Part shown: positions 1 to 18,500 of the stretch, one piece after another
Layout of the letters: every line of letters begins with the position of its first letter
Position numbering within the stretch: position 1 is the stretch's first letter
Assembly: GCA_039566865.1 (NCBI GenBank)
Contig: CM076951.1
Coordinates: 15,695,484 to 15,759,483, forward strand
Length of the DNA stretch: 64,000 nucleotides
Direction of reading: 5' to 3'
DNA from: Aurelia coerulea
Lineage: Eukaryota > Cnidaria > Scyphozoa > Semaeostomeae > Ulmaridae
The notes under the pieces: generated by a model
What the model was told of the DNA's origin: nothing
What the model saw: the letters and a program-made list of their open reading frames with translations, nothing else
The model's database searches: none
Position numbers and translations under genes: made by a program

Positions 1-198
1 CCAATTTTTGCAACAGGAAAAGAGCCAATAAAATACATTGGCAAATACAATACAACTGATGCAACTGAAAACGAGATGATGGCTGTCAGATGGAGAATTT
101 TTGAGTTTACTCATCAAATTGCAGTACACGACCAGAAGTCCGTTCCAAGTTGCCCCCGTTGCTTTGCAGAATTAGTTATGAGCGGCAATGAAGCCTAG
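1..198 (+). CDS. Rep (HUH/SF3) C-terminus, cut by window start
   Basis: The last 65 codons of the Rep described at 2607-4016, same frame and same stop. It holds the end of the helicase domain, including the ATGKEPI segment and the later arginine-rich RWRIFEF segment, then the short Cys-containing tail. It shows that at least one more unit lies upstream of the window. Confidence 0.9.
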   Translation, partial: PIFATGKEPIKYIGKYNTTDATENEMMAVRWRIFEFTHQIAVHDQKSVPSCPRCFAELVMSGNEA

Positions 199-271
199 AC
201 TTTTGCTTTTAGTTTGAGGACAACGATTAATGCGAGACTTTCTATCAGTTCAATTTTTTGTCGGGTTGTCA

Positions 272-479
272 ACGAGTTACCACGAGTTACCATCACGAGT
301 TACCATTTTTGTTTACAGGCTTCAGTATGGGAAACGACGAGTTACCATTTCTTTTTTTAAAAATAATATAGTATATTATTTTGAAAAAAGAAATGGTAAC
401 TCGTCGTTTCTCATACTGAAGACTGTAAATATAAATGGTAACTCGTGATGGTAACTCGTGGTATCTCATGGTAACTCGA
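272..479. promoter_or_regulatory. Iteron-bearing palindrome, putative replication origin or TIR-TIR junction (copy 1)
   Basis: An imperfect palindrome with arms of about 100 bp centred on G371. The apex AATAATATAGTATATTATT is a perfect 19-bp palindrome. The left arm has CGAGTTACCA at 273, 283, 296 and 338; the right arm has its complement at 394, 436, 449 and 469 plus a degenerate copy at 459. Repeated short motifs beside a hairpin are how CRESS-DNA and other rolling-circle origins are organised, and the apex contains TAATATAGT, which resembles but does not match the TAATATTAC-type nick site. Alternatively the two arms are the left and right inverted repeats of a transposon joined end to end. 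Both readings can hold together. Origin function is inference. Confidence 0.7.
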
Positions 480-769
480 AACTTATAATAATAAATGTCC
501 ATGAAGCAATGGCATACAGTAGGTACCCGCGTATAAGGAGCAGCTTTCTCAGTTTCAACCAAATATTCAGTATCTGAGTTTCTTAAATGTATGTTTCTTA
601 TAGGTGGGTACCAACTGTAATACTTCTGCAACATACCAACGCACAATAATTTCACACAAAGAAGGCTTGAACTTCGATATAGAAATGTTATTCAACTAAT
701 CACCAGTAAGAGAAGATTACAAAGAACTTTTTCATACATAATATGAAGTCGATCTTTTTCAGTATATAT
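480..769. other. Non-coding spacer between palindrome and transposase 3' end
   Basis: About 290 bp in every unit between the palindrome and the transposase stop. It holds no reading frame I would trust. A 120-codon open frame on the minus strand runs from here into the palindrome and is probably accidental. It presumably carries the transposase 3' UTR. Confidence 0.6.
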
Positions 770-1846
770 TCAGTACTTAATGCGTTCTCCTTTACATTTT
801 ATAATCATTTTCATTCGTTTGTTCATTGATTCGATAATTTTGTCTATTGTTGCTGTTGGCACTTCATTCATGATTTGCTTTATCCTGCTTTCAAATTGTT
901 CAATCGTTTCTACTTTAATTTGCCTCTCAAGGGCATCGCGGTGAAGGGCTTGTTTAACAATTCCAAAGAAGTTTTCTATCGGATTTATATCAGGACTTCT
1001 TGGTGGTATAGGTAAAAGTTGCGAGTTTACTTGTTTCATTGCTTCTTTCGCAAGTTTGCTGTTTTGCGACGGATCGCCATCTTGAATCCAAACTCTCGAA
1101 TTTTTTCCCGCTGCTTCAACCATTTTGTTAAAATTTTCTGAAAGAAATTTCGCAAAGAACCTCCCATTCATATTTTCATATCTTTGTGCGCAAACAACTC
1201 CTTTGCCATGAGAAATAGCGACCACCATCTTTACATGTTTCCCGCCTGTTCCACACGCTTGCCCTTTAGATGTGCAGCCACGAATGAGCCCCTCACTTTT
1301 TGTACGCCAAACTCTTCCTCTAGGAGCCAAAGACTGATCAAGAGGGTTTCTTTTGTAAACGAAGCCTACGCCATCGAGGTAGAAAGCTATTTTGTTTGTC
1401 CAGACATCAAAGTGGTGCTCTCTTAACATCTGCTTGGCAAATTTTAATCGAGTTTTTTTATCGCGTTCACTTAATAGTCCCTTTTTCCTTGCTTGAAGGT
1501 AATTGTAGCCTTTTTGGTTTAAAAACCTAGAAACTGTTCTACGAGACACATCTTTCACATCAGCTCGTGCCATCATCCTTTTTACTGTCCAGTTTGGCTC
1601 TTGCCCGCGAAGTGTTTTTACAAGCCGCACAATTTTCCTTTTCTCCCTCACTGATAACTTAGGTGGCCGGCCACCGACGGACTTTAAATCCTCCTGTTTT
1701 CTCTTCCCCCCTGTCGATTCTTTCCAGATGTTGTATATATGCGACCGTGACACAGCAGTTTCTTTTACCAACTCTTTGATGCTGGAATTTTTCTTATACC
1801 GTATGTATGCTCTTATCTCTGGAGAGATTTTCCGAGGACGCACCAT
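770..1846 (-). CDS. Tc1/mariner (IS630 superfamily) DD34E transposase, copy 1
   Basis: Cut-and-paste transposase of 358 aa from the ATG at 1846; an upstream in-frame TTG at 1921 is not needed, and 358 aa is normal for the family. An N-terminal helix-turn-helix region (residues about 5-45, with SRSHIYNIW) is followed by a second DNA-binding region (60-110, with the GRPPKLS linker), then the DDE domain. The catalytic triad is D158 (FYLDGVGF), D256 (WIQDGDPSQNS) and E291 (SPDINPIENFF), with 34 residues between the second D and E. All three are present and the frame is uninterrupted, so the enzyme may be active. It is transcribed away from Rep, and its 3' end faces the palindrome. TGACGTCA, a CRE-like palindrome, lies at 1901-1908 just upstream. 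Family call is firm; activity is inference. Confidence 0.93.
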   Translation of the reverse strand: MVRPRKISPEIRAYIRYKKNSSIKELVKETAVSRSHIYNIWKESTGGKRKQEDLKSVGGRPPKLSVREKRKIVRLVKTLRGQEPNWTVKRMMARADVKDVSRRTVSRFLNQKGYNYLQARKKGLLSERDKKTRLKFAKQMLREHHFDVWTNKIAFYLDGVGFVYKRNPLDQSLAPRGRVWRTKSEGLIRGCTSKGQACGTGGKHVKMVVAISHGKGVVCAQRYENMNGRFFAKFLSENFNKMVEAAGKNSRVWIQDGDPSQNSKLAKEAMKQVNSQLLPIPPRSPDINPIENFFGIVKQALHRDALERQIKVETIEQFESRIKQIMNEVPTATIDKIIESMNKRMKMIIKCKGERIKY

Positions 1847-2606
1847 CTTTATATGACTGTTTTCTTCAACTGCAAAGTTTGCCTTTGCATCAAATTCATA
1901 TGACGTCAGATTAATTTTCAATTATAGACAATTTTGAAATCAAGCCTCGTTCTCGTAATATGAACTAATTGATTAATAATTGGACCTATTTTGTGGCTCA
2001 TGTGAGCTGTTCTAAGTCACTACGTATTTTGGCTTCTAGAGACTGTCTCTAGCATTTTTTACTGAAGGTATGCTTGGAAATATTTATCTCACATAGAAGA
2101 TACAGGAGAGATCATAATGAAAATCACATTATTTTGTTACATAATCTTTCTACTTAAACTCGGAACAAAAGGGATTATGATGCATCCACTAGGGACATCA
2201 ATTAACGGGCTAGAATTTACTTTTTAATGCTCAGAGTCAATGCACAATTGTATTCCAGTCATTAAGATATCCGGTCATCAGGCATAAACTTGCGATGTAG
2301 ATTGGAGGGGAGGGCATTAACGGATGCAATAAAGCTCAGTTTTTACAAAGTCGTTGGAAAGACACCCATGCACAGGATGTATCTACTATTTCTGTCTTGG
2401 TAGTAGTGTGTAGTTAACATGCCTGTGAGTTAGGCAGTCTGGTTGATTGTTCATCTAATTTTTATTGCATCCTAAGTATATTAAAGAGGAAACACATTTA
2501 AATGACTTGATACAGTTTAAAAGGGCAAACTCTATCCTGGATAAAATTAGTCTGCTCAAAACGCACAACGAGATTGACGAAAAGCTTTCTGCAGAATTTC
2601 TTGGTC
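1847..2606. promoter_or_regulatory. Divergent intergenic region between transposase and Rep (copy 1)
   Basis: About 760 bp between the two divergent starts, so it should hold both promoters. Visible items are TGACGTCA at 1901-1908 on the transposase side, the 17-bp palindrome at 2036-2052, and TATATTAAAG near 2477 and TTTAAAAGGG near 2517 as TATA-like candidates for Rep. Equivalent regions are 5665-6424 and 9480-10243. The third carries an extra AATA near 9,962. Promoter activity is inferred from position only. Confidence 0.5.
2036..2052. promoter_or_regulatory. 17-bp perfect palindrome CTAGAGAC-T-GTCTCTAG
   Basis: Two 8-bp arms around a single T, between the divergent genes. Repeated at 5854-5870 and 9669-9685. 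In the last, truncated copy only the first arm remains and the array ends there (13,498). Could be a dimeric protein site or a recombination/breakage point. Confidence 0.6.
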
Positions 2607-4016
2607 ATGTCTGAGACAAATGCGCCCAGTGTCAGTTTTCGAGAGGAGAGTGGTGGAGAATCTGGTTCAGGACTGGACCCGAGAGAGATAAGAAGGTGCT
2701 ACCTCATTACATACAGTCAGGTGGACAAAAGCAAATTTCCAACCAAAGAATCATTTACAGAGGCAGTCGTCAAGTCTTTTGCGGTCGGGAAATCTAAAGC
2801 GAAGCTAGTGCACTGGGTCTGCGTTAGAGAAGAACACGCCGAGGATGGGTTTCACTACCACATGGCCGTAAAATTTTCCGAGGGCAAGCGGTGGAAAAAA
2901 GCGAAAAAGCACTTGCGGACAAAGTACCAAATAAGTATAAACTTTACCGAGAGTGAGAAATACTACAACTATTATAGTGCGTACAAATATTTGATAAAAG
3001 AGGACCCCCAGCCGCTGCACAGTGAAGGACACCCTGATTTAACGTCAGCATCTTCACCAAAAACCTCAAAGTCAACAAAGGCTTTAATGTGCAAGAAACG
3101 CCAGAGATCTGCCGAATCAAGTGGAGGAGTTGGGCAGTCAGCATCGTTAAAACCTGTGAAAAGTCGTAGGCTCTCCAACTTCGAGGTAGCTGAGGCAATA
3201 ATTGCCAAAAATATCAGGGATGACAGAGAGCTGTATGCATTGGCCAACGAGCAGAAAATGGAGGGGAAAACAGACCTGGCCAGTTTCGTGCTTGGAAAAT
3301 CACAAAAGGCAATCAATGAGTTGATGTCTTCTACCTGGAAAATGAACGATGCCGCAGCAAATTTAGCTCGGAGCAAAACATCACGCATGGAGAGAGTGGA
3401 ACAAGCTCTTCACGGGAATTGTGTCGAGGGCTGCCAAGGTCAGTGGATTGTTTGTGCCAAAGAAATTTTGAGAAACAATCGCGTCAGTCTGTATTTTTTT
3501 GCTGCTGCACTTCGAGAGCTGCTTGAAAAAGGAAGAGGAAAGTATCGAAACCTCATGATTATAGGGCCTGCAAATTGCAGAAAGACCTTTATTTTAGATC
3601 CGCTGAATTCAATCTTTGATACTTTCACAAATCCTGCGAATGCAAGCTACGCCTGGCTGGGTGCTGAGACGAAGGAGGTGATATTTCTCAATGACTTTCG
3701 ATATTCCAATGAAATTATGGCCTGGAAGGATATGCTTCTTCTTTTAGAGGGTCAAACCCTTCACTTAGCGGCACCAAAGACGTCTTATGCTCAAGACATT
3801 CTCTTCAACCGAGACACGCCAATTTTTGCAACAGGAAAAGAGCCAATAAAATACATTGGCAAATACAATACAACTGATGCAACTGAAAACGAGATGATGG
3901 CTGTCAGATGGAGAATTTTTGAGTTTACTCATCAAATTGCAGTACACGACCAGAAGTCCGTTCCAAGTTGCCCCCGTTGCTTTGCAGAATTAGTTATGAG
4001 CGGCAATGAAGCCTAG
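2607..4016 (+). CDS. Rep-like replication initiator, HUH endonuclease + SF3 helicase, copy 1
   Basis: A 469-aa protein; I chose the ATG at 2607 over an upstream in-frame TTG. The N-terminal HUH endonuclease has motif 1 YLITYSQ (32-38), motif 2 FHYHM with both metal-binding histidines (83 and 85), and motif 3 YLIKED with the likely nicking tyrosine Y128 and K131. A basic linker (about 150-190) follows. The C-terminal superfamily 3 helicase has Walker A at 320-327, Walker B-like EVIFLNDF (357-364), ATGKEPI (408-414) and an arginine-rich RWRIFEF (434-440). Such proteins nick an origin and unwind it in rolling-circle replication of CRESS-type viruses and plasmids. In this copy Walker A reads GPANCRKT: the last glycine is arginine, which should weaken ATP binding. 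It lies in one unit with a DDE transposase. Confidence 0.88.
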   Translation: MSETNAPSVSFREESGGESGSGLDPREIRRCYLITYSQVDKSKFPTKESFTEAVVKSFAVGKSKAKLVHWVCVREEHAEDGFHYHMAVKFSEGKRWKKAKKHLRTKYQISINFTESEKYYNYYSAYKYLIKEDPQPLHSEGHPDLTSASSPKTSKSTKALMCKKRQRSAESSGGVGQSASLKPVKSRRLSNFEVAEAIIAKNIRDDRELYALANEQKMEGKTDLASFVLGKSQKAINELMSSTWKMNDAAANLARSKTSRMERVEQALHGNCVEGCQGQWIVCAKEILRNNRVSLYFFAAALRELLEKGRGKYRNLMIIGPANCRKTFILDPLNSIFDTFTNPANASYAWLGAETKEVIFLNDFRYSNEIMAWKDMLLLLEGQTLHLAAPKTSYAQDILFNRDTPIFATGKEPIKYIGKYNTTDATENEMMAVRWRIFEFTHQIAVHDQKSVPSCPRCFAELVMSGNEA

Positions 4017-4089
4017 ACTTTTGCTTTTAGTTTGAGGACAACGATTAATGCGAGACTTTCTATCAGTTCAATTTTTTGTCGGGTTGTCA

Positions 4090-4297
4090 ACGAGTTACCA
4101 CGAGTTACCATCACGAGTTACCATTTTTGTTTACAGGCTTCAGTATGGGAAACGACGAGTTACCATTTCTTTTTTTAAAAATAATATAGTATATTATTTT
4201 GAAAAAAGAAATGGTAACTCGTCGTTTCTCATACTGAAGCCTGTAAATATAAATGGTAACTCGTGATGGTAACTCGTGGTATCTCGTGGTAACTCGA
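4090..4297. promoter_or_regulatory. Iteron-bearing palindrome (copy 2)
   Basis: Same structure as 272-479, centred on G4189 with the same 19-bp apex. In the right arm it reads GAAGCCTG where copies 1 and 3 read GAAGACTG, which makes it more symmetrical. The outer degenerate motif reads TGGTATCTCG here, one mismatch from the iteron. Confidence 0.7.
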
Positions 4298-4587
4298 AAC
4301 TTATAATAATAAATGTCCATGAAGCAATGGCATACAGTAGGTACCCGCGTATAAGGAGCGGCTTTCTCAGTTTCAACCAAATATTCAGTATCTGAGTTTC
4401 TTAAATGTATGTTTCTTATAGGTGGGTACCAACTGTAATACTTCTGCAACATACCAACGCACAATAATTTCACACAAAGAAGGCTTGAACTTCGATATAG
4501 AAATGTTATTCAACTAATCACCAGTAAGAGAAGATTACAAAGAACTTTTTCATACATAATATGAAGTCGATCTTTTTCAGTATATAT

Positions 4588-5664
4588 TCAGTACTTAATG
4601 CGTTCTCCTTTACATTTTATAATCATTTTCATTCGTTTGTTCATTGATTCGATAATTTTGTCTATTGTTGCTGTTGGCACTTCATTCATGATTTGCTTTA
4701 TCCTGCTTTCAAATTGTTCAATCGTCTCTACTTTAATTTGCCTCTCAAGGGCATCGCGGTGAAGGGCTTGTTTAACAATTCCAAAGAAGTTTTCTATCGG
4801 ATTTATATCAGGACTTCTTGGTGGTATAGGTAAAAGTTGCGAGTTTACTTGTTTCATTGCTTCTTTCGCAAGTTTGCTGTTTTGCGACGGATCGCCATCT
4901 TGAATCCAAACTCTCGAATTTTTTCCCGCTGCTTCAACCATTTTGTTAAAATTTTCTGAAAGAAATTTCGCAAAGAACCTCCCATTCATATTTTCATATC
5001 TTTGTGCGCAAACAACTCCTTTGCCATGAGAAATAGCGACCACCATCTTTACATGTTTCCCGCCTGTTCCACACGCTTGCCCTTTAGATGTGCAGCCACG
5101 AATGAGCCCCTCACTTTTTGTACGCCAAACTCTTCCTCTAGGAGCCAAAGACTGATCAAGAGGGTTTCTTTTGTAAACGAAGCCTACGCCATCGAGGTAG
5201 AAAGCTATTTTGTTTGTCCAGACATCAAAGTGGTGCTCTCTTAACATCTGCTTGGCAAATTTTAATCGAGTTTTTTTATCGCGTTCACTTAATAGTCCCT
5301 TTTTCCTTGCTTGAAGGTAATTGTAGCCTTTTTGGTTTAAAAACCTAGAAACTGTTCTACGAGACACATCTTTCACATCAGCTCGTGCCATCATCCTTTT
5401 TACTGTCCAGTTTGGCTCTTGCCCGCGAAGTGTTTTTACAAGCCGCACAATTTTCCTTTTCTCCCTCACTGATAACTTAGGTGGCCGGCCACCGACGGAC
5501 TTTAAATCCTCCTGTTTTCTCTTCCCCCCTGTCGATTCTTTCCAGATGTTGTATATATGCGACCGTGACACAGCAGTTTCTTTTACCAACTCTTTGATGC
5601 TGGAATTTTTCTTATACCGTATGTATGCTCTTATCTCTGGAGAGATTTTCCGAGGACGCACCAT
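4588..5664 (-). CDS. Tc1/mariner DD34E transposase, copy 2
   Basis: Full-length 358-aa copy from the ATG at 5664, with the same protein sequence as the copy at 770-1846. The catalytic D, D and E and both DNA-binding regions are intact. Only silent differences such as cgtttc/cgtctc near 4,726 separate the two copies. Confidence 0.92.
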   Translation of the reverse strand: MVRPRKISPEIRAYIRYKKNSSIKELVKETAVSRSHIYNIWKESTGGKRKQEDLKSVGGRPPKLSVREKRKIVRLVKTLRGQEPNWTVKRMMARADVKDVSRRTVSRFLNQKGYNYLQARKKGLLSERDKKTRLKFAKQMLREHHFDVWTNKIAFYLDGVGFVYKRNPLDQSLAPRGRVWRTKSEGLIRGCTSKGQACGTGGKHVKMVVAISHGKGVVCAQRYENMNGRFFAKFLSENFNKMVEAAGKNSRVWIQDGDPSQNSKLAKEAMKQVNSQLLPIPPRSPDINPIENFFGIVKQALHRDALERQIKVETIEQFESRIKQIMNEVPTATIDKIIESMNKRMKMIIKCKGERIKY

Positions 5665-5853
5665 CTTTATATGACTGTTTTCTTCAACTGCAAAGTTTGC
5701 CTTTGCATCAAATTCATATGACGTCAGATTAATTTTCAATTATAGACAATTTTGAAATCAAGCCTCGTTCTCGTAATATGAACTAATTGATTAATAATTG
5801 GACCTATTTTGTGGCTCATGTGAGCTGTTCTAAGTCACTACGTATTTTGGCTT

Positions 5854-5870
5854 CTAGAGACTGTCTCTAG
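5854..5870. promoter_or_regulatory. 17-bp palindrome, copy 2
   Basis: Identical to the one at 2036-2052 and in the same place between the divergent genes. Confidence 0.6.
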
Positions 5871-6424
5871 CATTTTTTACTGAAGGTATGCTTGGAAATA
5901 TTTATCTCACATAGAAGATACAGGAGAGATCATAATGAAAATCACATTATTTTGTTACATAATCTTTCTACTTAAACTCGGAACAAAAGGGATTATGATG
6001 CATCCACTAGGGACATCAATTAACGGGCTAGAATTTACTTTTTAATGCTCAGAGTCAATGCACAATTGTATTCCAGTCATTAAGATATCCGGTCATCAGG
6101 CATAAACTTGCGATGTAGATTGGAGGGGAGGGCATTAACGGATGCAATAAAGCTCAGTTTTTACAAAGTCGTTGGAAAGACACCCATGCACAGGATGTAT
6201 CTACTATTTCTGTCTTGGTAGTAGTGTGTAGTTAACATGCCTGTGAGTTAGGCAGTCTGGTTGATTGTTCATCTAATTTTTATTGCATCCTAAGTATATT
6301 AAAGAGGAAACACATTTAAATGACTTGAAACAGTTTAAAAGGGCAAACTCTATCCTGGATAAAATTAGTCTGCTCAAAACGCACAACGAGATTGACGAAA
6401 AGCTTTCTGCAGAATTTCTTGGTC

Positions 6425-7831
6425 ATGTCTGAGACAAATGCGCCCAGTGTCAGTTTTCGAGAGGAGAGTGGTGGAGAATCTGGTTCAGGACTGGACCCGA
6501 GAGAGATAAGAAGGTGCTACCTCATTACATACAGTCAGGTGGACAAAAGCAAATTTCCAACCAAAGAATCATTTACAGAGGCAGTCGTCAAGTCTTTTGC
6601 GGTCGGGAAATCTAAAGCGAAGCTAGTGCACTGGGTCTGCGTTAGAGAAGAACACGCCGAGGATGGGTTTCACTACCACATGGCCGTAAAATTTTCCGAG
6701 GGCAAGCGGTGGAAAAAAGCGAAAAAGCACTTGCGGACAAAGTACCAAATAAGTATAAACTTTACCGAGAGTGAGAAATACTACAACTATTATAGTGCGT
6801 ACAAATATTTGATAAAAGAGGACCCCCAGCCGCTGCACAGTGCAGGACACCCTGATTTAACGTCAGCATCTTCACCAAAAACCTCAAAGTCAACAAAGGC
6901 TTTAATGTGCAAGAAACGCCAGAGATCTGCCGAATCAAGTGGAGGAGTTGGGCAGTCAGCATCGTTAAAACCTGTGAAAAGTCGTAGGCTCTCCAACTTC
7001 GAGGTAGCTGAGGCAATAATTGCCAAAAATATCAGGGATGACAGAGAGCTGTATGCATTGGCCAACGAGCAGAAAATGGAGGGGAAAACAGACCTGGCCA
7101 GTTTCGTGCTTGGAAAATCACAAAAGGCAATCAATGAGTTGATGTCTTCTACCTGGAAAATGAACGATGCCGCAGCAAATTTAGCTCGGAGCAAAACATC
7201 ACGCATGGAGAGAGTGGAACAAGCTCTTCACGGGAATTGTGTCGAGGGCTGCCAAGGCCAGTGGATTGTTTGTGCCAAAGAAATTTTGAGAAACAATCGC
7301 GTCAGTCTGTATTTTTTTGCTGCTGCACTTCGAGAGCTGCTTGAAAAAGGAAGAGGAAAGTATCGAAACCTCATGATTATAGGGCCTGCAAATTGCAGAA
7401 AGACCTTTATTTTAGATCCGCTGAATTCAATCTTTGATACTTTCACAAATCCTGCGAATGCAAGCTACGCCTGGCTGGGTGCTGAGACGAAGGTGATATT
7501 TCTCAATGACTTTCGATATTCCAATGAAATTATGGCCTGGAAGGATATGCTTCTTCTTTTAGAGGGTCAAACCCTTCACTTAGCGGCACCAAAGACGTCT
7601 TATGCTCAAGACATTCTCTTCAACCGAGACACGCCAATTTTTGCCACAGGAAAAGAGCCAATAAAATACATTGGCAAATACAATACAACTGATGCAACTG
7701 AAAACGAGATGATGGCTGTCAGATGGAGAATTTTTGAGTTTACTCATCAAATTGCAGTACACGACCAGAAGTCCGTTCCAAGTTGCCCCCGTCGCTTTGC
7801 AGAATTAGTTATGAGCGGCAATGAAGCCTAG
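6425..7831 (+). CDS. Rep (HUH/SF3), copy 2, one-codon deletion
   Basis: 468 aa, one residue shorter than copies 1 and 3: an in-frame codon is missing immediately before the Walker B strand, so ETKEVIFLND becomes ETKVIFLND. Walker A again reads GPANCRKT. Other differences are Glu to Ala after the HUH domain (LHSAGHPD) and Cys to Arg near the C-terminus (SCPRRF). The HUH motifs are intact. With both Walker motifs altered, this is the copy whose helicase is least likely to work. Confidence 0.88.
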   Translation: MSETNAPSVSFREESGGESGSGLDPREIRRCYLITYSQVDKSKFPTKESFTEAVVKSFAVGKSKAKLVHWVCVREEHAEDGFHYHMAVKFSEGKRWKKAKKHLRTKYQISINFTESEKYYNYYSAYKYLIKEDPQPLHSAGHPDLTSASSPKTSKSTKALMCKKRQRSAESSGGVGQSASLKPVKSRRLSNFEVAEAIIAKNIRDDRELYALANEQKMEGKTDLASFVLGKSQKAINELMSSTWKMNDAAANLARSKTSRMERVEQALHGNCVEGCQGQWIVCAKEILRNNRVSLYFFAAALRELLEKGRGKYRNLMIIGPANCRKTFILDPLNSIFDTFTNPANASYAWLGAETKVIFLNDFRYSNEIMAWKDMLLLLEGQTLHLAAPKTSYAQDILFNRDTPIFATGKEPIKYIGKYNTTDATENEMMAVRWRIFEFTHQIAVHDQKSVPSCPRRFAELVMSGNEA

Positions 7832-7904
7832 ACTTTTGCTTTTAGTTTGAGGACAACGATTAATGCGAGACTTTCTATCAGTTCAATTTTTTGTCGGGTT
7901 GTCA

Positions 7905-8112
7905 ACGAGTTACCACGAGTTACCATCACGAGTTACCATTTTTGTTTACAGGCTTCAGTATGGGAAACGACGAGTTACCATTTCTTTTTTTAAAAATAAT
8001 ATAGTATATTATTTTGAAAAAAGAAATGGTAACTCGTCGTTTCTCATACTGAAGACTGTAAATATAAATGGTAACTCGTGATGGTAACTCGTGGTATCTC
8101 GTGGTAACTCGA
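7905..8112. promoter_or_regulatory. Iteron-bearing palindrome (copy 3)
   Basis: Centred on G8004 with the same apex and iterons. It carries the GAAGACTG variant in the right arm, as copy 1 does. Confidence 0.7.
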
Positions 8113-8402
8113 AACTTATAATAATAAATGTCCATGAAGCAATGGCATACAGTAGGTACCCGCGTATAAGGAGCGGCTTTCTCAGTTTCAACCAAATATT
8201 CAGTATCTGAGTTTCTTAAATGTATGTTTCTTATAGGTGGGTACCAACTGTAATACTTCTGCAACATACCAACGCACAATAATTTCACACAAAGAAGGCT
8301 TGAACTTCGATATAGAAATGTTATTCAACTAATCACCAGTAAGAGAAGATTACAAAGAACTTTTTCATACATAATATGAAGTCGATCTTTTTCAGTATAT
8401 AT

Positions 8403-9479
8403 TCAGTACTTAATGCGTTCTCCTTTACATTTTATAATCATTTTCATTCGTTTGTTCATTGATTCGATAATTTTGTCTATTGTTGCTGTTGGCACTTCAT
8501 TCATGATTTGCTTTATCCTGCTTTCAAATTGTTCAATCGTCTCTACTTTAATTTGCCTCTCAAGGGCATCGCGGTGAAGGGCTTGTTTAACAATTCCAAA
8601 GAAGTTTTCTATCGGATTTATATCAGGACTTCTTGGTGGTATAGGTAAAAGTTGCGAGTTTACTTGTTTCATTGCTTCTTTCGCAAGTTTGCTGTTTTGC
8701 GACGGATCGCCATCTTGAATCCAAACTCTCGAATTTTTTCCCGCTGCTTCAACCATTTTGTTAAAATTTTCTGAAAGAAATTTCGCAAAGAACCTCCCAT
8801 TCATATTTTCATATCTTTGTGCGCAAACAACTCCTTTGCCATGAGAAATAGCGACCACCATCTTTACATGTTTCCCGCCTGTTCCACACGCTTGCCCTTT
8901 AGATGTGCAGCCACGAATGAGCCCCTCACTTTTTGTACGCCAAACTCTTCCTCTAGGAGCCAAAGACTGATCAAGAGGGTTTCTTTTGTAAACGAAGCCT
9001 ACGCCATCGAGGTAGAAAGCTATTTTGTTTGTCCAGACATCAAAGTGGTGCTCTCTTAACATCTGCTTGGCAAATTTTAATCGAGTTTTTTTATCGCGTT
9101 CACTTAATAGTCCCTTTTTCCTTGCTTGAAGGTAATTGTAGCCTTTTTGGTTTAAAAACCTAGAAACTGTTCTACGAGACACATCTTTCACATCAGCTCG
9201 TGCCATCATCCTTTTTACTGTCCAGTTTGGCTCTTGCCCGCGAAGTGTTTTTACAAGCCGCACAATTTTCCTTTTCTCCCTCACTGATAACTTAGGTGGC
9301 CGGCCACCGACGGACTTTAAATCCTCCTGTTTTCTCTTCCCCCCTGTCGATTCTTTCCAGATGTTGTATATATGCGACCGTGACACAGCAGTTTCTTTTA
9401 CCAACTCTTTGATGCTGGAATTTTTCTTATACCGTATGTATGCTCTTATCTCTGGAGAGATTTTCCGAGGACGCACCAT
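8403..9479 (-). CDS. Tc1/mariner DD34E transposase, copy 3
   Basis: Third full-length 358-aa copy, start ATG at 9479, intact D, D, E triad, same translation as copies 1 and 2. It shares a unit with the Rep that has the canonical Walker A, so the unit from about 8,004 to 11,826 is the one in which both proteins look intact. Confidence 0.92.
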   Translation of the reverse strand: MVRPRKISPEIRAYIRYKKNSSIKELVKETAVSRSHIYNIWKESTGGKRKQEDLKSVGGRPPKLSVREKRKIVRLVKTLRGQEPNWTVKRMMARADVKDVSRRTVSRFLNQKGYNYLQARKKGLLSERDKKTRLKFAKQMLREHHFDVWTNKIAFYLDGVGFVYKRNPLDQSLAPRGRVWRTKSEGLIRGCTSKGQACGTGGKHVKMVVAISHGKGVVCAQRYENMNGRFFAKFLSENFNKMVEAAGKNSRVWIQDGDPSQNSKLAKEAMKQVNSQLLPIPPRSPDINPIENFFGIVKQALHRDALERQIKVETIEQFESRIKQIMNEVPTATIDKIIESMNKRMKMIIKCKGERIKY

Positions 9480-9668
9480 CTTTATATGACTGTTTTCTTC
9501 AACTGCAAAGTTTGCCTTTGCATCAAATTCATATGACGTCAGATTAATTTTCAATTATAGACAATTTTGAAATCAAGCCTCGTTCTCGTAATATGAACTA
9601 ATTGATTAATAATTGGACCTATTTTGTGGCTCATGTGAGCTGTTCTAAGTCACTACGTATTTTGGCTT

Positions 9669-9685
9669 CTAGAGACTGTCTCTAG
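9669..9685. promoter_or_regulatory. 17-bp palindrome, copy 3
   Basis: Identical to 2036-2052. Confidence 0.6.
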
Positions 9686-10243
9686 CATTTTTTACTGAAG
9701 GTATGCTTGGAAATATTTATCTCACATAGAAGATACAGGAGAGATCATAATGAAAATCACATTATTTTGTTACATAATCTTTCTACTTAAACTCGGAACA
9801 AAAGGGATTATGATGCATCCACTAGGGACATCAATTAACGGGCTAGAATTTACTTTTTAATGCTCAGAGTCAATGCACAATTGTATTCCAGTCATTAAGA
9901 TATCCGGTCATCAGGCATAAACTTGCGATGTAGATTGGAGGGGAGGGCATTAACGGATGCAATAAATAAAGCTCAGTTTTTACAAAGTCGTTGGAAAGAC
10001 ACCCATGCACAGGATGTATCTACTATTTCTGTCTTGGTAGTAGTGTGTAGTTAACATGCCTGTGAGTTAGGCAGTCTGGTTGATTGTTCATCTAATTTTT
10101 ATTGCATCCTAAGTATATTAAAGAGGAAACACATTTAAATGACGTGACACAGTTTAAAAGGGCAAACTCTATCCTGGATAAAATTAGTCTGCTCAAAACG
10201 CACAACGAGATTGACGAAAAGCTTTCTGCAGAATTTCTTGGTC

Positions 10244-11653
10244 ATGTCTGAGACAAATGCGCCCAGTGTCAGTTTTCGAGAGGAGAGTGGTGGAGAATCT
10301 GGTTCAGGACTGGACCCGAGAGAGATAAGAAGGTGCTACCTCATTACATACAGTCAGGTGGACAAAAGCAAATTTCCAACCAAAGAATCATTTACAGAGG
10401 CAGTCGTCAAGTCTTTTGCGGTCGGGAAATCTAAAGCGAAGCTAGTGCACTGGGTCTGCGTTAGAGAAGAACACGCCGAGGATGGGTTTCACTACCACAT
10501 GGCCGTAAAATTTTCCGAGGGCAAGCGGTGGAAAAAAGCGAAAAAGCACTTGCGGACAAAGTACCAAATAAGTATAAACTTTACCGAGAGTGAGAAATAC
10601 TACAACTATTATAGTGCGTACAAATATTTGATAAAAGAGGACCCCCAGCCGCTGCACAGTGAAGGACACCCTGATTTAACGTCAGCATCTTCACCAAAAA
10701 CCTCAAAGTCAACAAAGGCTTTAATGTGCAAGAAACGCCAGAGATCTGCCGAATCAAGTGGAGGAGTTGGGCAGTCAGCATCGTTAAAACCTGTGAAAAG
10801 TCGTAGGCTCTCCAACTTCGAGGTAGCTGAGGCAATAATTGCCAAAAATATCAGGGATGACAGAGAGCTGTATGCATTGGCCAACGAGCAGAAAATGGAG
10901 GGGAAAACAGACCTGGCCAGTTTCGTGCTTGGAAAATCACAAAAGGCAATCAATGAGTTGATGTCTTCTACCTGGAAAATGAACGATGCCGCAGCAAATT
11001 TAGCTCGGAGCAAAACATCACGCATGGAGAGAGTGGAACAAGCTCTTCACGGGAATTGTGTCGAGGGCTGCCAAGGCCAGTGGATTGTTTGTGCCAAAGA
11101 AATTTTGAGAAACAATCGCGTCAGTCTGTATTTTTTTGCTGCTGCACTTCGAGAGCTGCTTGAAAAAGGAAGAGGAAAGTATCGAAACCTCATGATTATA
11201 GGGCCTGCAAATTGCGGAAAGACCTTTATTTTAGATCCGCTGAATTCAATCTTTGATACTTTCACAAATCCTGCGAATGCAAGCTACGCCTGGCTGGGTG
11301 CTGAGACGAAGGAGGTGATATTTCTCAATGACTTTCGATATTCCAATGAAATTATGGCCTGGAAGGATATGCTTCTTCTTTTAGAGGGTCAAACCCTTCA
11401 CTTAGCGGCACCAAAGACGTCTTATGCTCAAGACATTCTCTTCAACCGAGACACGCCAATTTTTGCAACAGGAAAAGAGCCAATAAAATACATTGGCAAA
11501 TACAATACAACTGATGCAACTGAAAACGAGATGATGGCTGTCAGATGGAGAATTTTTGAGTTTACTCATCAAATTGCAGTACACGACCAGAAGTCCGTTC
11601 CAAGTTGCCCCCGTTGCTTTGCAGAATTAGTTATGAGCGGCAATGAAGCCTAG
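10244..11653 (+). CDS. Rep (HUH/SF3), copy 3, canonical Walker A
   Basis: 469 aa. The only complete Rep in the window whose Walker A reads GPANCGKT, the standard SF3 form (GxxNxGKT). Walker B has its full EVIFLND and the HUH motifs are as in copy 1. The single-base difference (cgg here, cag elsewhere in the antepenultimate part of the loop) makes this the likely ancestral or functional state. With the intact transposase at 8403-9479 it forms the best candidate for an autonomous unit. Confidence 0.9.
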   Translation: MSETNAPSVSFREESGGESGSGLDPREIRRCYLITYSQVDKSKFPTKESFTEAVVKSFAVGKSKAKLVHWVCVREEHAEDGFHYHMAVKFSEGKRWKKAKKHLRTKYQISINFTESEKYYNYYSAYKYLIKEDPQPLHSEGHPDLTSASSPKTSKSTKALMCKKRQRSAESSGGVGQSASLKPVKSRRLSNFEVAEAIIAKNIRDDRELYALANEQKMEGKTDLASFVLGKSQKAINELMSSTWKMNDAAANLARSKTSRMERVEQALHGNCVEGCQGQWIVCAKEILRNNRVSLYFFAAALRELLEKGRGKYRNLMIIGPANCGKTFILDPLNSIFDTFTNPANASYAWLGAETKEVIFLNDFRYSNEIMAWKDMLLLLEGQTLHLAAPKTSYAQDILFNRDTPIFATGKEPIKYIGKYNTTDATENEMMAVRWRIFEFTHQIAVHDQKSVPSCPRCFAELVMSGNEA

Positions 11654-11726
11654 ACTTTTGCTTTTAGTTTGAGGACAACGATTAATGCGAGACTTTCTAT
11701 CAGTTCAATTTTTTGTCGGGTTGTCA

Positions 11727-11934
11727 ACGAGTTACCACGAGTTACCATCACGAGTTACCATTTTTGTTTACAGGCTTCAGTATGGGAAACGACGAGTTAC
11801 CATTTCTTTTTTTAAAAATAATATAGTATATTATTTTGAAAAAAGAAATGGTAACTCGTCGTTTCTCATACTGAAGCCTGTAAATATAAATGGTAACTCG
11901 TGATGGTAACTCGTGGTATCTCGTGGTAACTCGA
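11727..11934. promoter_or_regulatory. Iteron-bearing palindrome (copy 4)
   Basis: Centred on G11826. GAAGCCTG variant, as in copy 2. It precedes the truncated last unit. Confidence 0.7.
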
Positions 11935-12224
11935 AACTTATAATAATAAATGTCCATGAAGCAATGGCATACAGTAGGTACCCGCGTATAAGGAGCGGCT
12001 TTCTCAGTTTCAACCAAATATTCAGTATCTGAGTTTCTTAAATGTATGTTTCTTATAGGTGGGTACCAACTGTAATACTTCTGCAACATACCAACGCACA
12101 ATAATTTCACACAAAGAAGGCTTGAACTTCGATATAGAAATGTTATTCAACTAATCACCAGTAAGAGAAGATTACAAAGAACTTTTTCATACATAATATG
12201 AAGTCGATCTTTTTCAGTATATAT

Positions 12225-13302
12225 TCAGTACTTAATGCGTTCTCCTTTACATTTTATAATCATTTTCATTCGTTTGTTCATTGATTCGATAATTTTGTCT
12301 ATTGTTGCTGTTGGCACTTCATTCATGATTTGCTTTACCCTGCTTTCAAATTGTTCAATCGTTTCTACTTTAATTTGCCTCTCAAGGGCATCGCGGTGAA
12401 GGGCTTGTTTAACAATTCCAAAGAAGTTTTCTATCGGATTTATATCAGGACTTCTTGGTGGTATAGGTAAAAGTTGCGAGTTTACTTGTTTCATTGCTTC
12501 TTTCGCAAGTTTGCTGTTTTGCGACGGATCGCCATCTTGAATCCAAACTCTCGAATTTTTTCCCGCTGCTTCAACCATTTTGTTAAAATTTTCTGAAAGA
12601 AATTTCGCAAAGAACCTCCCATTCATATTTTCATATCTTTGTGCGCAAACAACTCCTTTGCCATGAGAAATAGCGACCACCATCTTTACATGTTTCCCGC
12701 CTGTTCCACACGCTTGCCCTTTAGATGTGCAGCCACGAATGAGCCCCTCACTTTTTGTACGCCAAACTCTTCCTCTAGGAGCCAAAGACTGATCAAGAGG
12801 GTTTCTTTTGTAAACGAAGCCTACGCCATCGAGGTAGAAAGCTATTTTGTTTGTCCAGACATCAAAGTGGTGCTCTCTTAACATCTGCTTGGCAAATTTT
12901 AATCGAGTTTTTTTATCGCGTTCACTTAATAGTCCCTTTTTCCTTGCTTGAAGGTAATTGTAGCCTTTTTGGTTTAAAAACCTAGAAACTGTTCTACGAG
13001 ACACATCTTTCACATCAGCTCGTGCCATCATCCTTTTTACTGTCCAGTTTGGCTCTTGCCCGCGAAGTGTTTTTACAAGCCGCACAATTTTCCTTTTCTC
13101 CCTCATTGATAACTTAGGTGGCCGGCCACCCACGGACTTTAAATCCTCCTGTTTTCTCTTCCCCCCCTGTCGATTCTTTCCAGATGTTGTATATATGCGA
13201 CCGTGACACAGCAGTTTCTTTTACCAACTCTTTGATGCTGGAATTTTTCTTATACCGTATGTATGCTCTTATCTCTGGAGAGATTTTCCGAGGACGCACC
13301 AT
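12225..13302 (-). pseudogene. Tc1/mariner transposase, copy 4, frameshifted
   Basis: One extra C in a run of Cs at about 13,161-13,167 (seven instead of six) shifts the frame after residue 46, between the N-terminal helix-turn-helix and the GRPPKLS linker. Read from the ATG at 13,302 the protein leaves frame at once; the DDE domain stays open downstream (12,225-13,133). A second change turns Ser-Val into Ser-Met at the start of the second DNA-binding region, and there is an Ile to Val near the C-terminus. It lies in the terminal unit that has lost Rep. Confidence 0.92.
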
Positions 13303-13498
13303 CTTTATATGACTGTTTTCTTCAACTGCAAAGTTTGCCTTTGCATCAAATTCATATGACGTCAGATTAATTTTCAATTATAGACAATTTTGAAATCAAG
13401 CCTCGTTCTCGTAATATGAACTAATTGATTAATAATTGGACCTATTTTGTGGCTCATGTGAGCTGTTCTAAGTCACTATGTATTTTGGCTTCTAGAGA

Positions 13499-13757
13499 CA
13501 ATCGTGGCCAAAAGGTTAGTGGACAGCCGTCAAAGAAGGCCTAAATGCGACCTCTTTAGAGTTATACCCTTCTCTTGGTTTAGAAACCCCTCCCCCCGAG
13601 GTCAATGTTGTGATTTTCCATAAGCATATGGTTCGTGAACTGATTCTGCTGTCTATCTGTTCCAACAACATTGACTTGGGGGGGGGGGGAGGGGGGGCTT
13701 GATGTTCGAGAAACCTAGGTTTCGGTCTATCGTCCAATAACTTTTGGCCACGATTGG
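13499..13757. mobile_element. Foldback MITE at the array edge
   Basis: Starts exactly where the array stops. The ends are inverted: AATCGTGGCCAAAAG at 13,500 and its complement CTTTTGGCCACGATT at about 13,741-13,755. The inner parts also pair (GAGGTCAATGTTGTG near 13,600 against CAACATTGACTTGG near 13,664), so nearly the whole element can fold into one hairpin. GTGGCCAAAAG is a terminus seen in Tc1-like elements (family knowledge). No TA target duplication is visible. Long C and G runs sit inside the arms. Confidence 0.75.
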
Positions 13758-14646: not shown

Positions 14647-16128
14647 ATGCAAGACAGTGTTTTTGTGAAGGCTATTCACGAAGCAATCGATAAAATCAGG
14701 ACAAAGGATAGACAAAGGCCTCATGATGGAAATATCATCAAAGTTGCTGCGAACCAGAGTGGCCTAGCTCCAGAGCAAATTCAAAAATATCTCACGCTAC
14801 TGGTAAAAAAGGCGTGGTTTACATAGAACGCACTTCAAAAGGCGAAGATTCCTATTACTTCGATGTCGACAAGTTTACCAATGATGAAGACATTTCAGAA
14901 ATAGATTCATCTTCGAATGATATTGAATCTGGTCTCGATAAAATACTTACTTCTGAAGATATGCTAAAAGCTGCCGAGAACCATATGCCAGATGCCACAC
15001 CAAAGCCTGTAGAGAGATCCGAATTTCTGCAATTTCTGGATTTGATTGAGAAACTCACCAATGACAATCGCGATTTACAAGCAAAGGTTTCCAATGGACA
15101 GGATAAAATCAAAAAATTAATTTCGGAAAATTGCGAGCTAAAATTGGAAAACTATCAGCTCAAGCTGGATGTCAACACGAATTCCCCAACGGAAGTTTTT
15201 CTCAGCAACCAGAATAAAGTGATCTCGGGGGACTGCAATCCTAAAAAGAGTGTATCAAGCCAACCTTTCGTTTCCAATAACAATGCGGGCATTGTTATTG
15301 GAAATGAAAAGTTCAACAACCGGCAAGCGATGCAAAAGAAAAAGAAACGACCAAACAAAAAGCAAAGAGCAAGACAACTGAAATCCCAGATGAGTTCGAA
15401 TAATGGTGATGCTAAAAATTGTGAAACGAGAAGCAAACATCAGAACAATGCAGGCAATGTTACTGAGAGTGAAAAATCTAGCGAAGCGACTAAGAATGAT
15501 AATGGTAATGGTAATTGTAGCGATGGCAACGGTAGAGGCATGAGTGAAACTGTACGAAATGAAAGGAGGAGCGAAGGCGATGCCCATGTGACAAGTGTCA
15601 GGAAAGGAGATAGAAAAGATACCACCATTTTTGTTGGGGATTCCATGATAAAAAAACCTAAATGGCTGGGACTTAAAGAAGAGATGCGGGTCATCCATAA
15701 ATATATATGTCAAATCCTTTCGAGGTTGTACAGTTGAGGATATGAAAAGCTATGTCGAGCCGTCGATTGCGAGAAAACCTGACAGGATTATTTTGCATGT
15801 TGGTACGAACGATCTTGGGAAAGAAAAAAGGTCAGATCTAGATATTGCTACAGAGGTAATTAACTTGGCGAAACACATTCAAAGCCATGGTATTAAAGTA
15901 ATCGCTTCCGGCCTAGTGCCCAGATACGATCATCTTGAGCCCAAACGAGTAAAGGTCAACTTTATTTTAAGGGACATGTGTAACGATGAAAATATGCCTT
16001 ATGTAGATAATAGTAACATTGACCCCTCCAAGCATTTAAACCGGAGTAAGCTACATTTAAACGGTACAGGTGATGGAATTTTAGCTGATAATCTTTTTAA
16101 CGCAACAACATTAACACATGATAATTGA
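14647..16128 (+). pseudogene. LINE ORF1 with SGNH esterase domain, two frameshifts
   Basis: Three frames make up the protein. Part one (14,647-14,823) starts at ATG and is helical. After a frameshift in a poly-A run near 14,810, part two (14,814-15,735) has an acidic stretch, a coiled coil (about 15,040-15,180), a Lys/Arg-rich nucleic-acid-binding segment (about 15,330-15,400) and an Asn/Gly/Ser-rich linker. Then comes the first esterase block, TIFVGDSMIKK (GDS, nucleophile Ser). A second frameshift near 15,705 leads into part three (15,742-16,128) with HVGTNDLG (block III GxND) and KLHLNGTG (block V histidine). SGNH esterases of this kind are known in ORF1 of CR1-group LINEs. The frameshifts make it non-functional. 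Confidence 0.85.
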
Positions 16129-16242
16129 CTTCAAAGTAGAACAGAGGGTGCTAGTTTGACTCCTCCGAGCTATGGTTCTACTGCTGCCTCCCCAAATGTT
16201 TCCTCTCAGAACAGCAGAAATGCACTAGGTCACAGAAAAGGG

Positions 16243-17254
16243 ATGGTGGTTGCGTCTCTGAATGTGAACAGCCTTCTCTTGCATATTGATGAGATTCGTT
16301 CTGTCATTAAGGATCTAGGCATACACATTTTGGCTATTAACTAGACGAAGCTCGATAAAAAAAATGTTGATGACGATCTTGTCAGTGAGTGAGTGAGTAA
16401 TTGTATTTAACGTGCCTAGCCTGCGAAAGTCTCGAGATGACTTGTTTCCAGCAGGGGACACGGGTTATACATAACCTTTCACTTTTTAGGCACATACACT
16501 TGCTATTCTCGCAAGGTATGGGTTTCTGCGCTTGGCGCAGGGGGGCCCATTAGGGCGACCCCGGTCCTTCCTCTCGATGTGACCACACCTCGTGATTCCT
16601 TTGCCTTTGCCTGGAATTACACAGAGTTAGCAGCTCTCCTCACACTTTCGCAGCAAGTATGACCCTGGTGGGATTCGAACCCACGACCTTGCGGTTGTGA
16701 GTCCGGCGCCTTAACCACTGGGCCAACCTCGCCAGCCTGCGCTGGGCCAACCTTGCCAGTATTGATGGCTTTTCCATTAGGAGATGCGATCCCAATCGCA
16801 GCGGTGGCGGAGTTGCCATTTATATTAATGATGCCCTTATTGATAAATTTACAGTTCGGGACGATATTCCAAAGTCCTCCCTCGAGGCACTGTGTATAGA
16901 ACTGAAGCCAGTCCGCTCAGCACCTTTTGTTGTGCTGGCTTGGTATCGTCCTCCTGATGTGTCGAATGAGGTTTTTGATGACCTCGAGAAAACCTTGCAG
17001 TTTCTTGACAAGGAAGGGAAAGAGATCATCATTTTGGGTGACACTAATTGTGACATCTTGCCTAACTATTCTTCTTCGCAACTTAGCAAGGACATCAATC
17101 TCCCATCGCACTCAAATCGATTATTACAAATGTATAAACTTTTCGGTTTTCACCAGCTGATAGAGACTGCCACTAGAGATAGAGACTGCCACTACTACAT
17201 CCTCTACCCTAATAGATCATGTTGCTACTACAAACAAATCAAATATTGTCATAT
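16243..17254 (+). pseudogene. LINE ORF2, AP endonuclease part
   Basis: The likely ATG is at 16,243, followed by VVASLNVNSLLLHIDEIR, the APE-type endonuclease start with its catalytic Asn. A TAG at 16,342-16,344 stands where the family has Glu of the NETK motif, a nonsense change at a catalytic position. After the SINE the domain goes on with GGGVAIYI (about 16,806), VLAWYRPP (about 16,932) and IIILGDTNCD (about 17,028), the GDFN-type motif. A small tandem duplication (agagactgccact, twice near 17,163-17,190) shifts the frame before the DNA transposon interrupts the domain. Confidence 0.87.
16387..16751 (-). mobile_element. tRNA-derived SINE inside the LINE
   Basis: On the minus strand there is a tRNA-like head with A box TGGCCCAGTGG (16,717-16,727) and B box GGTTCGAATCC (16,671-16,681). 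The anticodon-loop region between them would read CAC. The element continues leftward about 280 bp and ends in a TCACTCACTCACT tail. It is flanked by a 9-bp target duplication with one mismatch, CTTGTCAGT (16,378-16,386) and CTTGCCAGT (16,752-16,760), and splits the endonuclease reading. A partial repeat of the 5' end (gctgggccaacc) lies at 16,741-16,752. It is not a functional tRNA gene: the acceptor arm does not pair well and it sits in an ORF. Confidence 0.88.
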
Positions 17255-17904
17255 ATCACCGTAGCGCGAGCCTGTAAATTTGAGGTGCCGGTATATCTGA
17301 GGTTTGCCGGTAAATATGAGGTGTCGTGGGACTACTCAAACACCTGGGTTATTGTTTAAGAAGCCATTCAAATTAAACAATGCAGTATAGAAATCGCTCA
17401 TTGTACAAGACACATTACTCTTTTGTGGTCACCGCTGTTGACCGCTTTTTGTCGGGGGGTAAGGTTGGTAACAGACAGGTTCAGCAATACCTTTGTCCTT
17501 GGAATATTTACTCTTCAAAGAACGTTTAGCAATTCTAGCTAAACAAGATTCATAATTTGTTTCATTTAATTTAGAAGCCAAATTAAAATGCATTCTCCAA
17601 TCTACAGCCGAATTTATATAAATCCTATAAGAGTTTTTCATAAGAAACTCTTATGAGCGCTCAGCTCTCAGATCACTAAAAAAGCAAAACAAACTTGAGC
17701 AGCATAATTTGCATCTTTTTTTCGTAATCTTCATATATAAAATGAGAGTTGAGAAACGTTGGAGAATCTTTCACGATATCGATTTACGAAACGGTAGCTT
17801 TCACGTTCCTATTTAACGCCTGTCTCAGAACGTCTCAAAGATTTGAGAAAATTGAAAAATCGACAAACGATATACGAGGAAAGAGAAAAAGAAGCTTAAA
17901 AAGA

Positions 17905-18500
17905 TGGGATAAGCTATAAGGTTTCTGAAAAATGCCACAGGATTTTGCGACGAAAGTGAGTAAGAAACTAAACCAATACTAAGGAAGGGTTGTTAAGTTC
18001 TATCTTTCGAAATTTTGAAAGATGTCTCATAATTTTATCAAAATTTAAAAACCGCAAATAGTATGCAACGAAAATGAATAAAAAAAATTAACCCATAGTA
18101 AGGAAGGGTTATTAAGTTCCAACTTTCGAAATTTTGAAAGATGTCTCATAATTTTATCAAAATTTAAAAGCCGCAAATAGTATGCGACGAAAGTGAATAA
18201 CAACCTTAACCCATAGTAAGGAAGGGTTATTTGGTTCTACCTTTCGAGATTTTGAAAGATGTCTCATAATTTTATCAAAATTTAAAAGCCGCAAATAGTA
18301 TGCGACGAAAGTGAATAACAACCTTAACCCATAGTAAGGAAGGGTTATTTGGTTCTACCTTTCGAGATTTTGAAAGATGTCTCATAAACCGCAAATTATA
18401 TGTAACGAAAATGAATAAAAAATTTAACCCATAGTAAAGAAGGGTTATTAGGTTATATCTTTCGATATTTTTGAAGGTTGTCTCATAATTTTATCAAAAT
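17905..18500. repeat. 118-bp minisatellite, about 5 copies
   Basis: The landmark aggaaggg(tt) recurs at 17,982, 18,101, 18,219, 18,337 and, as agaaggg, 18,437. Spacing is 118-119 bp, then 100 bp where the last copy has a deletion. Each unit carries tttgaaagatgtctcataa and a gcgacgaaagtgaat phrase. It lies within the 2.7-kb DNA transposon. Confidence 0.9.

Follow-up and report, generated by a model that had tools for sequence, protein, structure and literature searches.

For Teratorn and its relatives, fusions of piggyBac with a herpesvirus, a concatemer unit flanked by two transposon copies has been proposed to integrate by transposition (PMC10175614). A geminivirus-like transposon of Tuber melanosporum carries Rep-like and transposase open reading frames (ORFs) between terminal inverted repeats (TIRs) (Liu et al. 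2011, PMC3198968), and the same report treats DENSOV_HM of Hydra and PIVE of planarians as parvovirus-like repeats. Insertions of a densovirus in tapeworms have been reported in an account whose description of them mentions no transposase (PMC6880638). Moreover, the head-to-tail array of the Drosophila transposon Bari1 has been called enigmatic, and a rolling-circle-like origin from a circle has been proposed for it (PMC8834629). DNA transposons, rolling-circle replicons and tandem repeats, usually handled apart, are linked in the element described here, which lies as an array of units in a stretch of 64,000 nucleotides of the scyphozoan Aurelia coerulea (GenBank assembly GCA_039566865.1, contig CM076951.1, here C9, positions 15,695,484 to 15,759,483 of the forward strand; the whole stretch is called the window). 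Each unit joins a replication initiator (Rep) to a Tc1/mariner-type transposase, and the arrays are bounded by a gene-less end module (M). A search of open-access titles and abstract openings, which covered the best 3-15 titles per query and had subscription papers, preprints and Repbase outside its range, listed no element that combines a Rep and a Tc1-type transposase with ends resembling miniature inverted-repeat transposable elements (MITEs).

The element is probably, at a rough probability of 0.72, a rolling-circle replicon that uses its own transposase, acting on the outer Ms, to integrate concatemers. The original prediction, made from the letters of the window, had the unit both integrate by transposase and multiply as a rolling circle. 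The first capacity is strongly supported by TA dinucleotides at array edges and around solo Ms, and the second is one that we infer from a conserved initiator, an origin-like region, head-to-tail order and array-private identity.

Pairing of initiator and transposase

The prediction had also held that the pair reaches beyond one array, unless each gene should prove to stand alone elsewhere. This was upheld in the 574-Mb genome, where a transposase match lies within 3 kb of 69 of the 89 scored Rep matches, in every case on the opposite strand and never on the same one. These Reps are the best 89 of 686 candidates, and the transposase searches scored the best 107 of 588 and the best 112 of 565, so that the counts are lower bounds. 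The pair count used all 89 Rep entries and 93 of 225 transposase entries; those left out were repeats between searches, Rep-less arrays and entries far from any Rep, and by eye none lies within 3 kb of a Rep match. Four further Rep matches at C1:4.12M have a transposase in the fetched DNA. Since 16 of the 89 Reps show no transposase partner and transposase arrays without Rep also exist, the pair is the rule in this genome and not universal. Rep matches stand mostly in tandem arrays with a family-specific spacing of ~3.7-4.7 kb. At C17:1592105-1606465, a version of the youngest family's unit stands in three copies spaced by ~5.68 kb and is ~1.2 kb longer than its relatives.

Six families (38-57% identity) retain the pair in the same arrangement, both genes being seen in fetched DNA of five of them and the sixth being recognized by match positions and locus L034. 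Across the five, the pairwise identities of Rep and of transposase correlate (r 0.82, the best of 120 relabellings), which indicates that the two genes diverged together. In other genomes, protein searches returned 728 relatives of Rep and 753 of the transposase at E 0.001 or better.

The window holds the right part of a five-body array that starts 5.8 kb upstream of it, at C9:15689637, and has the structure M-(body)5-M, its four internal Ms being gone. Its units are spaced by 3818, 3815 and 3822-3823 bp and are 99-100% identical in 300-nt samples and 99.4-100% identical over whole units. As predicted, every complete 3.8-kb unit contains a transposase and a Rep in divergent orientation, with one palindrome centre each, a layout read from the ORFs and the palindrome centres. 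The 5' ends of the genes oppose each other across ~0.65 kb and the 3' ends across the palindrome. The window opens at C9:15695484, inside a Rep match (C9:15694239-15695678), and the 3' end of this gene, from the unit begun upstream, occupies positions 1..198 on the plus strand.

Open transposase frames lie on the minus strand at 770..1921, 4588..5739 and 8403..9554, followed by a shorter one of 302 amino acids (aa) at 12225..13133. The first and third copies have the same translation, which matches the Pfam domains DDE_3 (2e-12) and HTH_Tnp_Tc3_2 (2e-10). In eight copies drawn from several families, the catalytic triad D183, D281 and E316 is invariant and 34 residues separate its last two members, which bears out the earlier DD34E assignment; together with the helix-turn-helix (HTH) domain, this is the make-up of a Tc1/mariner transposase. 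Profile comparison with the PDB retrieved Sleeping Beauty SB100X (E 5e-15) and Tc3 (E 1e-7).

Complete Rep ORFs lie on the plus strand at 2574..4016, 6392..7831 and 10211..11653, with first ATGs at 2607, 6425 and 10244, respectively. Residues H94/H96 and Y133 occur in at least 90% of 32 Reps, and the Walker A residues are conserved. Fold comparison, which used a structure model of the third window copy, predicts a geminivirus-type HUH nuclease joined to a superfamily 3 (SF3) helicase of the parvovirus/papillomavirus type, like those of adeno-associated virus and E1. The conserved residues and the predicted structure thus agree with the HUH and SF3 assignment made before, a combination that marks the Reps of circular Rep-encoding single-stranded DNA (CRESS-DNA) viruses and other rolling-circle initiators. 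The Rep profile found no match among PDB sequences, the fold comparison alone giving one, and pattern or tblastn searches of viral contigs, phage records and bacterial or archaeal genomes found no relative of Rep. Replitrons are another kind of HUH transposon of eukaryotes, with ends of their own. Helitrons encode a RepHel protein with an SF1 helicase and lack TIRs; here the best helicase fold matches are SF3 and the ends are TIRs with TA. Both genes had been said to stay open in several copies, and the frames are indeed open, but two of the three complete window Reps carry a substitution in Walker A (the first and second copies), the third having the consensus. The window array may therefore have decayed in part; Rep copies that have the consensus motif are present elsewhere in the genome.

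No capsid gene was found among the unspliced ORFs of at least 100 aa in the window-family unit. These ORFs are Rep, the transposase, an antisense frame of 138 aa and a frame of 120 aa, the latter two having no Pfam match. The 120-aa frame (4111-4473 and its copies) overlaps the palindrome in every unit and is probably a chance product of it.

End modules, array edges and solo copies

The palindrome had been taken as the only cis element of the unit, and in this M was overlooked, a gene-less module of 217-303 bp (51 cases measured, some loci overlapping) with Tc1-type ends. Its inverted ends are alike in all families seen (CAATC..GG.CAAAA, with variations) and in several of them enclose an inner stem of the form C-run/CAATGTTG...CAACATTG/G-run. 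When units are aligned to array edges, the edges fall between the gene starts, and the arrays follow the pattern M-(body-M)n. The idea that the palindrome represents joined transposon ends was rejected because the edges with M ends lie in the other intergenic region. Internal Ms are flanked on the left by AGA (33 ends) or GGA (5) and on the right by TCT (35) or TCC (4), except at two C4 copies, one C4 unit and the inner side of the left-edge M of C12.

The outer ends of the arrays are different in kind. Among 35 edges examined in a choice of arrays, six are truncated or show no clear outer M end (C4 right, C1:4.14M right, and the left edges of C22, C14, C5 and C17), and 25 of the 29 intact ones are flanked by TA. 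Since TA stands at 6.7% of positions in the host DNA beside the arrays, this proportion is far beyond chance (p 8e-26). Nine insertions have TA on both sides, and three of these are single units. This is the mark expected from a Tc1/mariner transposase inserting M-(body-M)n as one piece, an interpretation strongly supported by these flanks.

The same mark surrounds Ms that stand alone. In the youngest family, the best 40 of 385 M candidates were scored, all 98-100% identical genome-wide, and by eye 12 of the 40 have no scored element gene within ~10 kb. Both ends were read for ten of the 12, and each of the ten lies between two TA dinucleotides. Two of them (L074/L075 and L078/L079) share near-identical flanks, so that this insertion appears to have been copied with its surroundings or to sit in another repeat, and the ten represent nine distinct sites. 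The predicted chromosomal integration by transposase is thus supported at both kinds of site, and the TIRs and TA target duplications are those of Tc1/mariner elements. The transposase gene, however, does not lie between the TIRs of one element: M is too short and carries no gene, and the transposase stands between Ms. The near-identity of the end modules suggests recent activity, which would make the system testable in living hosts.

Other internal junctions have no M. Four of them in the C2 array carry the scars CGAC, G, C and G, and others show no scar, a single C or small deletions. In the C10 array, units spaced by ~3735 bp stand beside others spaced by ~4016 bp, a difference close to one M. 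The junctions of the window array read AGAGA-CTG-TCTCT in three cases (2031..2054, 5849..5872 and 9664..9687) and AGAGA-TCTCT in one, and the sister arrays C10:9.06M and C20:8.80M carry M exactly there, between AGAGA and TCTCT. Scars that differ within one array indicate that Ms were excised separately, once the array or its concatemer had formed.

The last body of the window array ends exactly at position 13498, and the array's right end is marked by a 258-bp M at 13499-13756, with ends CAATCGTGGCCAAAAG / CTTTTGGCCACGATTG around an inner C-run/G-run stem and the outer flank GAT in place of TA. Further to the right, positions 14814-17264 hold broken frames resembling retroelement remains (a GDSL-like hydrolase domain barely above the cut-off and an endonuclease-reverse-transcriptase domain below it). 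A 118-bp tandem array fills 17946-18488 (3.7 copies at 92%) and is adjoined by a related 100-bp pair, and ~86 copies of a 249-bp satellite (89% matches) occupy the right third of the window at 42462-64000.

Candidate origin and formation of arrays

The palindrome of the window family has 91-nt arms that are 93-95% complementary, with one centre per unit. Together with CGAGTTACCA iterons, it forms a candidate Rep origin at 272..469 (centre 362-380), 4090..4287, 7905..8102 and 11727..11924 (centre 11817-11835), the arms of the first and last copies being placed by register. Fourteen regions 3' of Rep were compared, nine of them known gaps between the 3' ends of Rep and transposase and five consisting of the 0.94 kb downstream of Rep, in which no transposase is shown (C22:4.63M, C9:14.2M, C6:15.1M, C5:9.47M and C17:3.5M). 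In nine of the 14, a 9-mer is repeated 4-11 times, counting both strands, beyond all 200 shuffles. In several families these iterons are arranged in inverted order about an AT-rich centre, and in all four whole units checked they are confined to the gap between the gene 3' ends. They are common to close relatives (C4, C5, C10 and C17) and differ in more distant families, and initiator-binding sites are typically shared among close relatives and different in distant ones. Therefore, in most families, the region of iterons or palindrome looks like a candidate Rep origin. A geminivirus-type nonamer at every origin was also considered and rejected: the nonamer-like TAGTATTA occurs in only four of the 14 regions, in the C4 family and the C20:6.09M family with its two sister loci, and is absent from the window family.

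The element would thus be a small circular replicon that also transposes, with units of ~3.7-4.7 kb in most arrays. Its body would comprise the two enzymes and the iteron/palindrome origin between their 3' ends, and each circle would carry one M between the gene starts. Rep would nick the origin and the helicase would drive rolling-circle replication into head-to-tail concatemers. The transposase would then cut the outer ends of two Ms and paste M-(body-M)n at TA, where n ranges from 1 to a dozen or more, a step for which the edges and target duplications give strong support. Moreover, the transposase would also move single Ms, leaving solo copies at TA sites, and internal Ms would later be cut out of integrated arrays, leaving end-joining scars; both steps are supported by the copies and scars described above. 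The window array would be an M-(body)5-M of this kind that has lost its four internal Ms. In four arrays (C14, C22, C10:9.06M and C20:8.80M; L031, L032, L058 and L059) most of Rep is lost and M, iterons and transposase are kept. The persistence of such bodies is consistent with a Rep acting in trans, and other array mechanisms allow it as well.

Several observations weigh against this proposal. The circle, the nick site and the replication product are all unobserved in an analysis made on sequence only. The canonical motif III of rolling-circle Reps has a lysine three residues after the catalytic tyrosine, and Rep lacks it after the likely catalytic Y133. Five of the 14 regions 3' of Rep are without a clear iteron excess, C22:4.63M having a weak repeat, and the 14 are not independent families, several being close relatives. 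TA is absent from four intact edges, namely C5 right, C18 right and the two edges of the window array. Two internal Ms of C4 (L017:3913 and L017:8960) have TA instead of AGA at the left, as if M had re-inserted or the flank had been lost, and one C4 unit (L018:3236) has a ~313-bp deletion starting at the outer (right) end of M, such as an aborted transposase reaction might leave. Three of the four window scars are identical (CTG), which a single excision followed by copying would fit equally well.

The main rival concerns the growth of the arrays. A single M-body-M would insert first and then expand by unequal crossing-over or slippage between its terminal Ms, Rep being uninvolved. M does form direct repeats at both ends that permit such exchange, three insertions with n = 1 exist, and Rep-less units stand in arrays. 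The C4 array is a mosaic of at least three unit variants, which recombination fits as well as concatemers do, and in the window array a private substitution is common to Rep copies three and four. However, the youngest family is already multi-unit (2-6 transposase copies) at about nine sites counted by eye, with end modules 98-100% identical, and within C12, as within C19, the units differ by 0 bp in both genes and carry array-private variants. Moreover, this course of events would leave the conserved Rep and the recurrent iteron region without a role. We thus regard it as unlikely, if still a serious competitor.

Considerably less probable is a Campbell-type entry, in which circles recombine homologously with resident solo Ms, the TA is a legacy of the earlier insertion of M and the body is never moved by the transposase. 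Young solo Ms between two TA dinucleotides do exist, and the product would look alike at most edges. However, the left-edge M of C12 stands at TA, ~10 bp from an M-less site, with an inner TAGGTCAGAAG beside that site, and the right-edge M has its native AGA flank. A single crossover at one M of the circle would not produce the two flanks together. Moreover, among 13 Ms of one family, an edge M is no further from an internal M than two internal Ms are from one another (0-3 substitutions per half when the length of the C-run is ignored), and the available homology is only ~0.3 kb. A wrong stacking of identical repeats in the assembly is very improbable: the units are nearly identical, but the arrays have private variants, distinct junction scars and their own TA flanks, and single insertions show the same structure. 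Least probable of all is a chance nesting, in which a single joint landing of a Tc1-like element and a viral relic with Rep was followed by amplification along with the flanking DNA. Each of the two protein types does occur alone in other genomes, and no transposase is shown for 16 of the 89 Rep matches, but six diverged families share the pair in one arrangement and the genes co-diverge in the five tested.

Beyond the replicon and its transposase-driven integration, there is about an even chance that the element represents a class of eukaryotic integrative rolling-circle plasmids, part-time circles with a detachable transposable cassette that enter chromosomes as ready-made multimers. If so, this class would give rise to both solo MITEs and long tandem repeats, and other transposases, e.g., piggyBac in coral CMITE arrays, could take part in elements built likewise.

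Comparison with known systems

The head-to-tail arrays of Bari1 are described as still having no settled explanation (PMC8834629), and the spread of Reps like those of single-stranded DNA viruses in eukaryotes is an open question. The present element ties the two subjects together in readable steps, namely TA-bounded composites, solo modules, scars and an origin-like region, and offers a concrete source of MITEs, the end module being a MITE carried as part of a complete element. Head-to-tail gene arrays would then be explained by movable end-pieces that paste whole chains of copies into chromosomes.

The arrays resemble Bari1 in being head-to-tail arrays of a Tc1-like element. However, the Bari1 account, where it describes the arrays, mentions two clusters and no Rep (PMC8834629), whereas the present element has a Rep and an origin-like region and forms TA-bounded composites at many loci. 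The coral CMITEs are likewise MITEs in tandem, with spacer sequence highly similar between copies, but their ends are of the TTAA/piggyBac type and the description of the spacers reports neither Rep nor transposase (PMC2872659). Rotifer Terminons, also eukaryotic, can carry Rep proteins and form head-to-tail arrays, but they are giant telomeric retroelements, and their description mentions no Tc1-type transposase or TA-bounded ends (PMC6431247). DENSOV_HM of Hydra and PIVE of planarians, likened here by description and not by sequence, have no transposase partner in the account given of them (PMC3198968).

The Tuber melanosporum element shares a Rep-like ORF and a transposase within TIRs in a eukaryote. 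However, it is fungal, its ORFs are interrupted, its TIRs measure 37 bp and it shows no obvious target duplication, and its description mentions neither arrays nor a separate end module (PMC3198968). Teratorn shows the same composite logic as M-(body-M)n, as far as its proposed integration is described (PMC10175614). Nevertheless, Teratorn is a 180-kb herpesvirus with a piggyBac transposase and a herpesvirus gene set (PMC10175614), whereas the present units of ~4 kb have a Tc1-type transposase and Tc1-type ends, a rolling-circle-type Rep and no capsid gene among the ORFs scanned, and stand in arrays. From the Sleeping Beauty/Tc3 branch of Tc1/mariner (IS630) the element has the DD34E triad, the HTH domain, the TIRs and the TA target duplication. 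Unlike Tc1/mariner transposons, its TIR-bounded M is gene-less, its transposase lies outside M beside a replication initiator, and multimers would be integrated. We regard the element as a variant among the known transposon-replicon hybrids and not a wholly new one.

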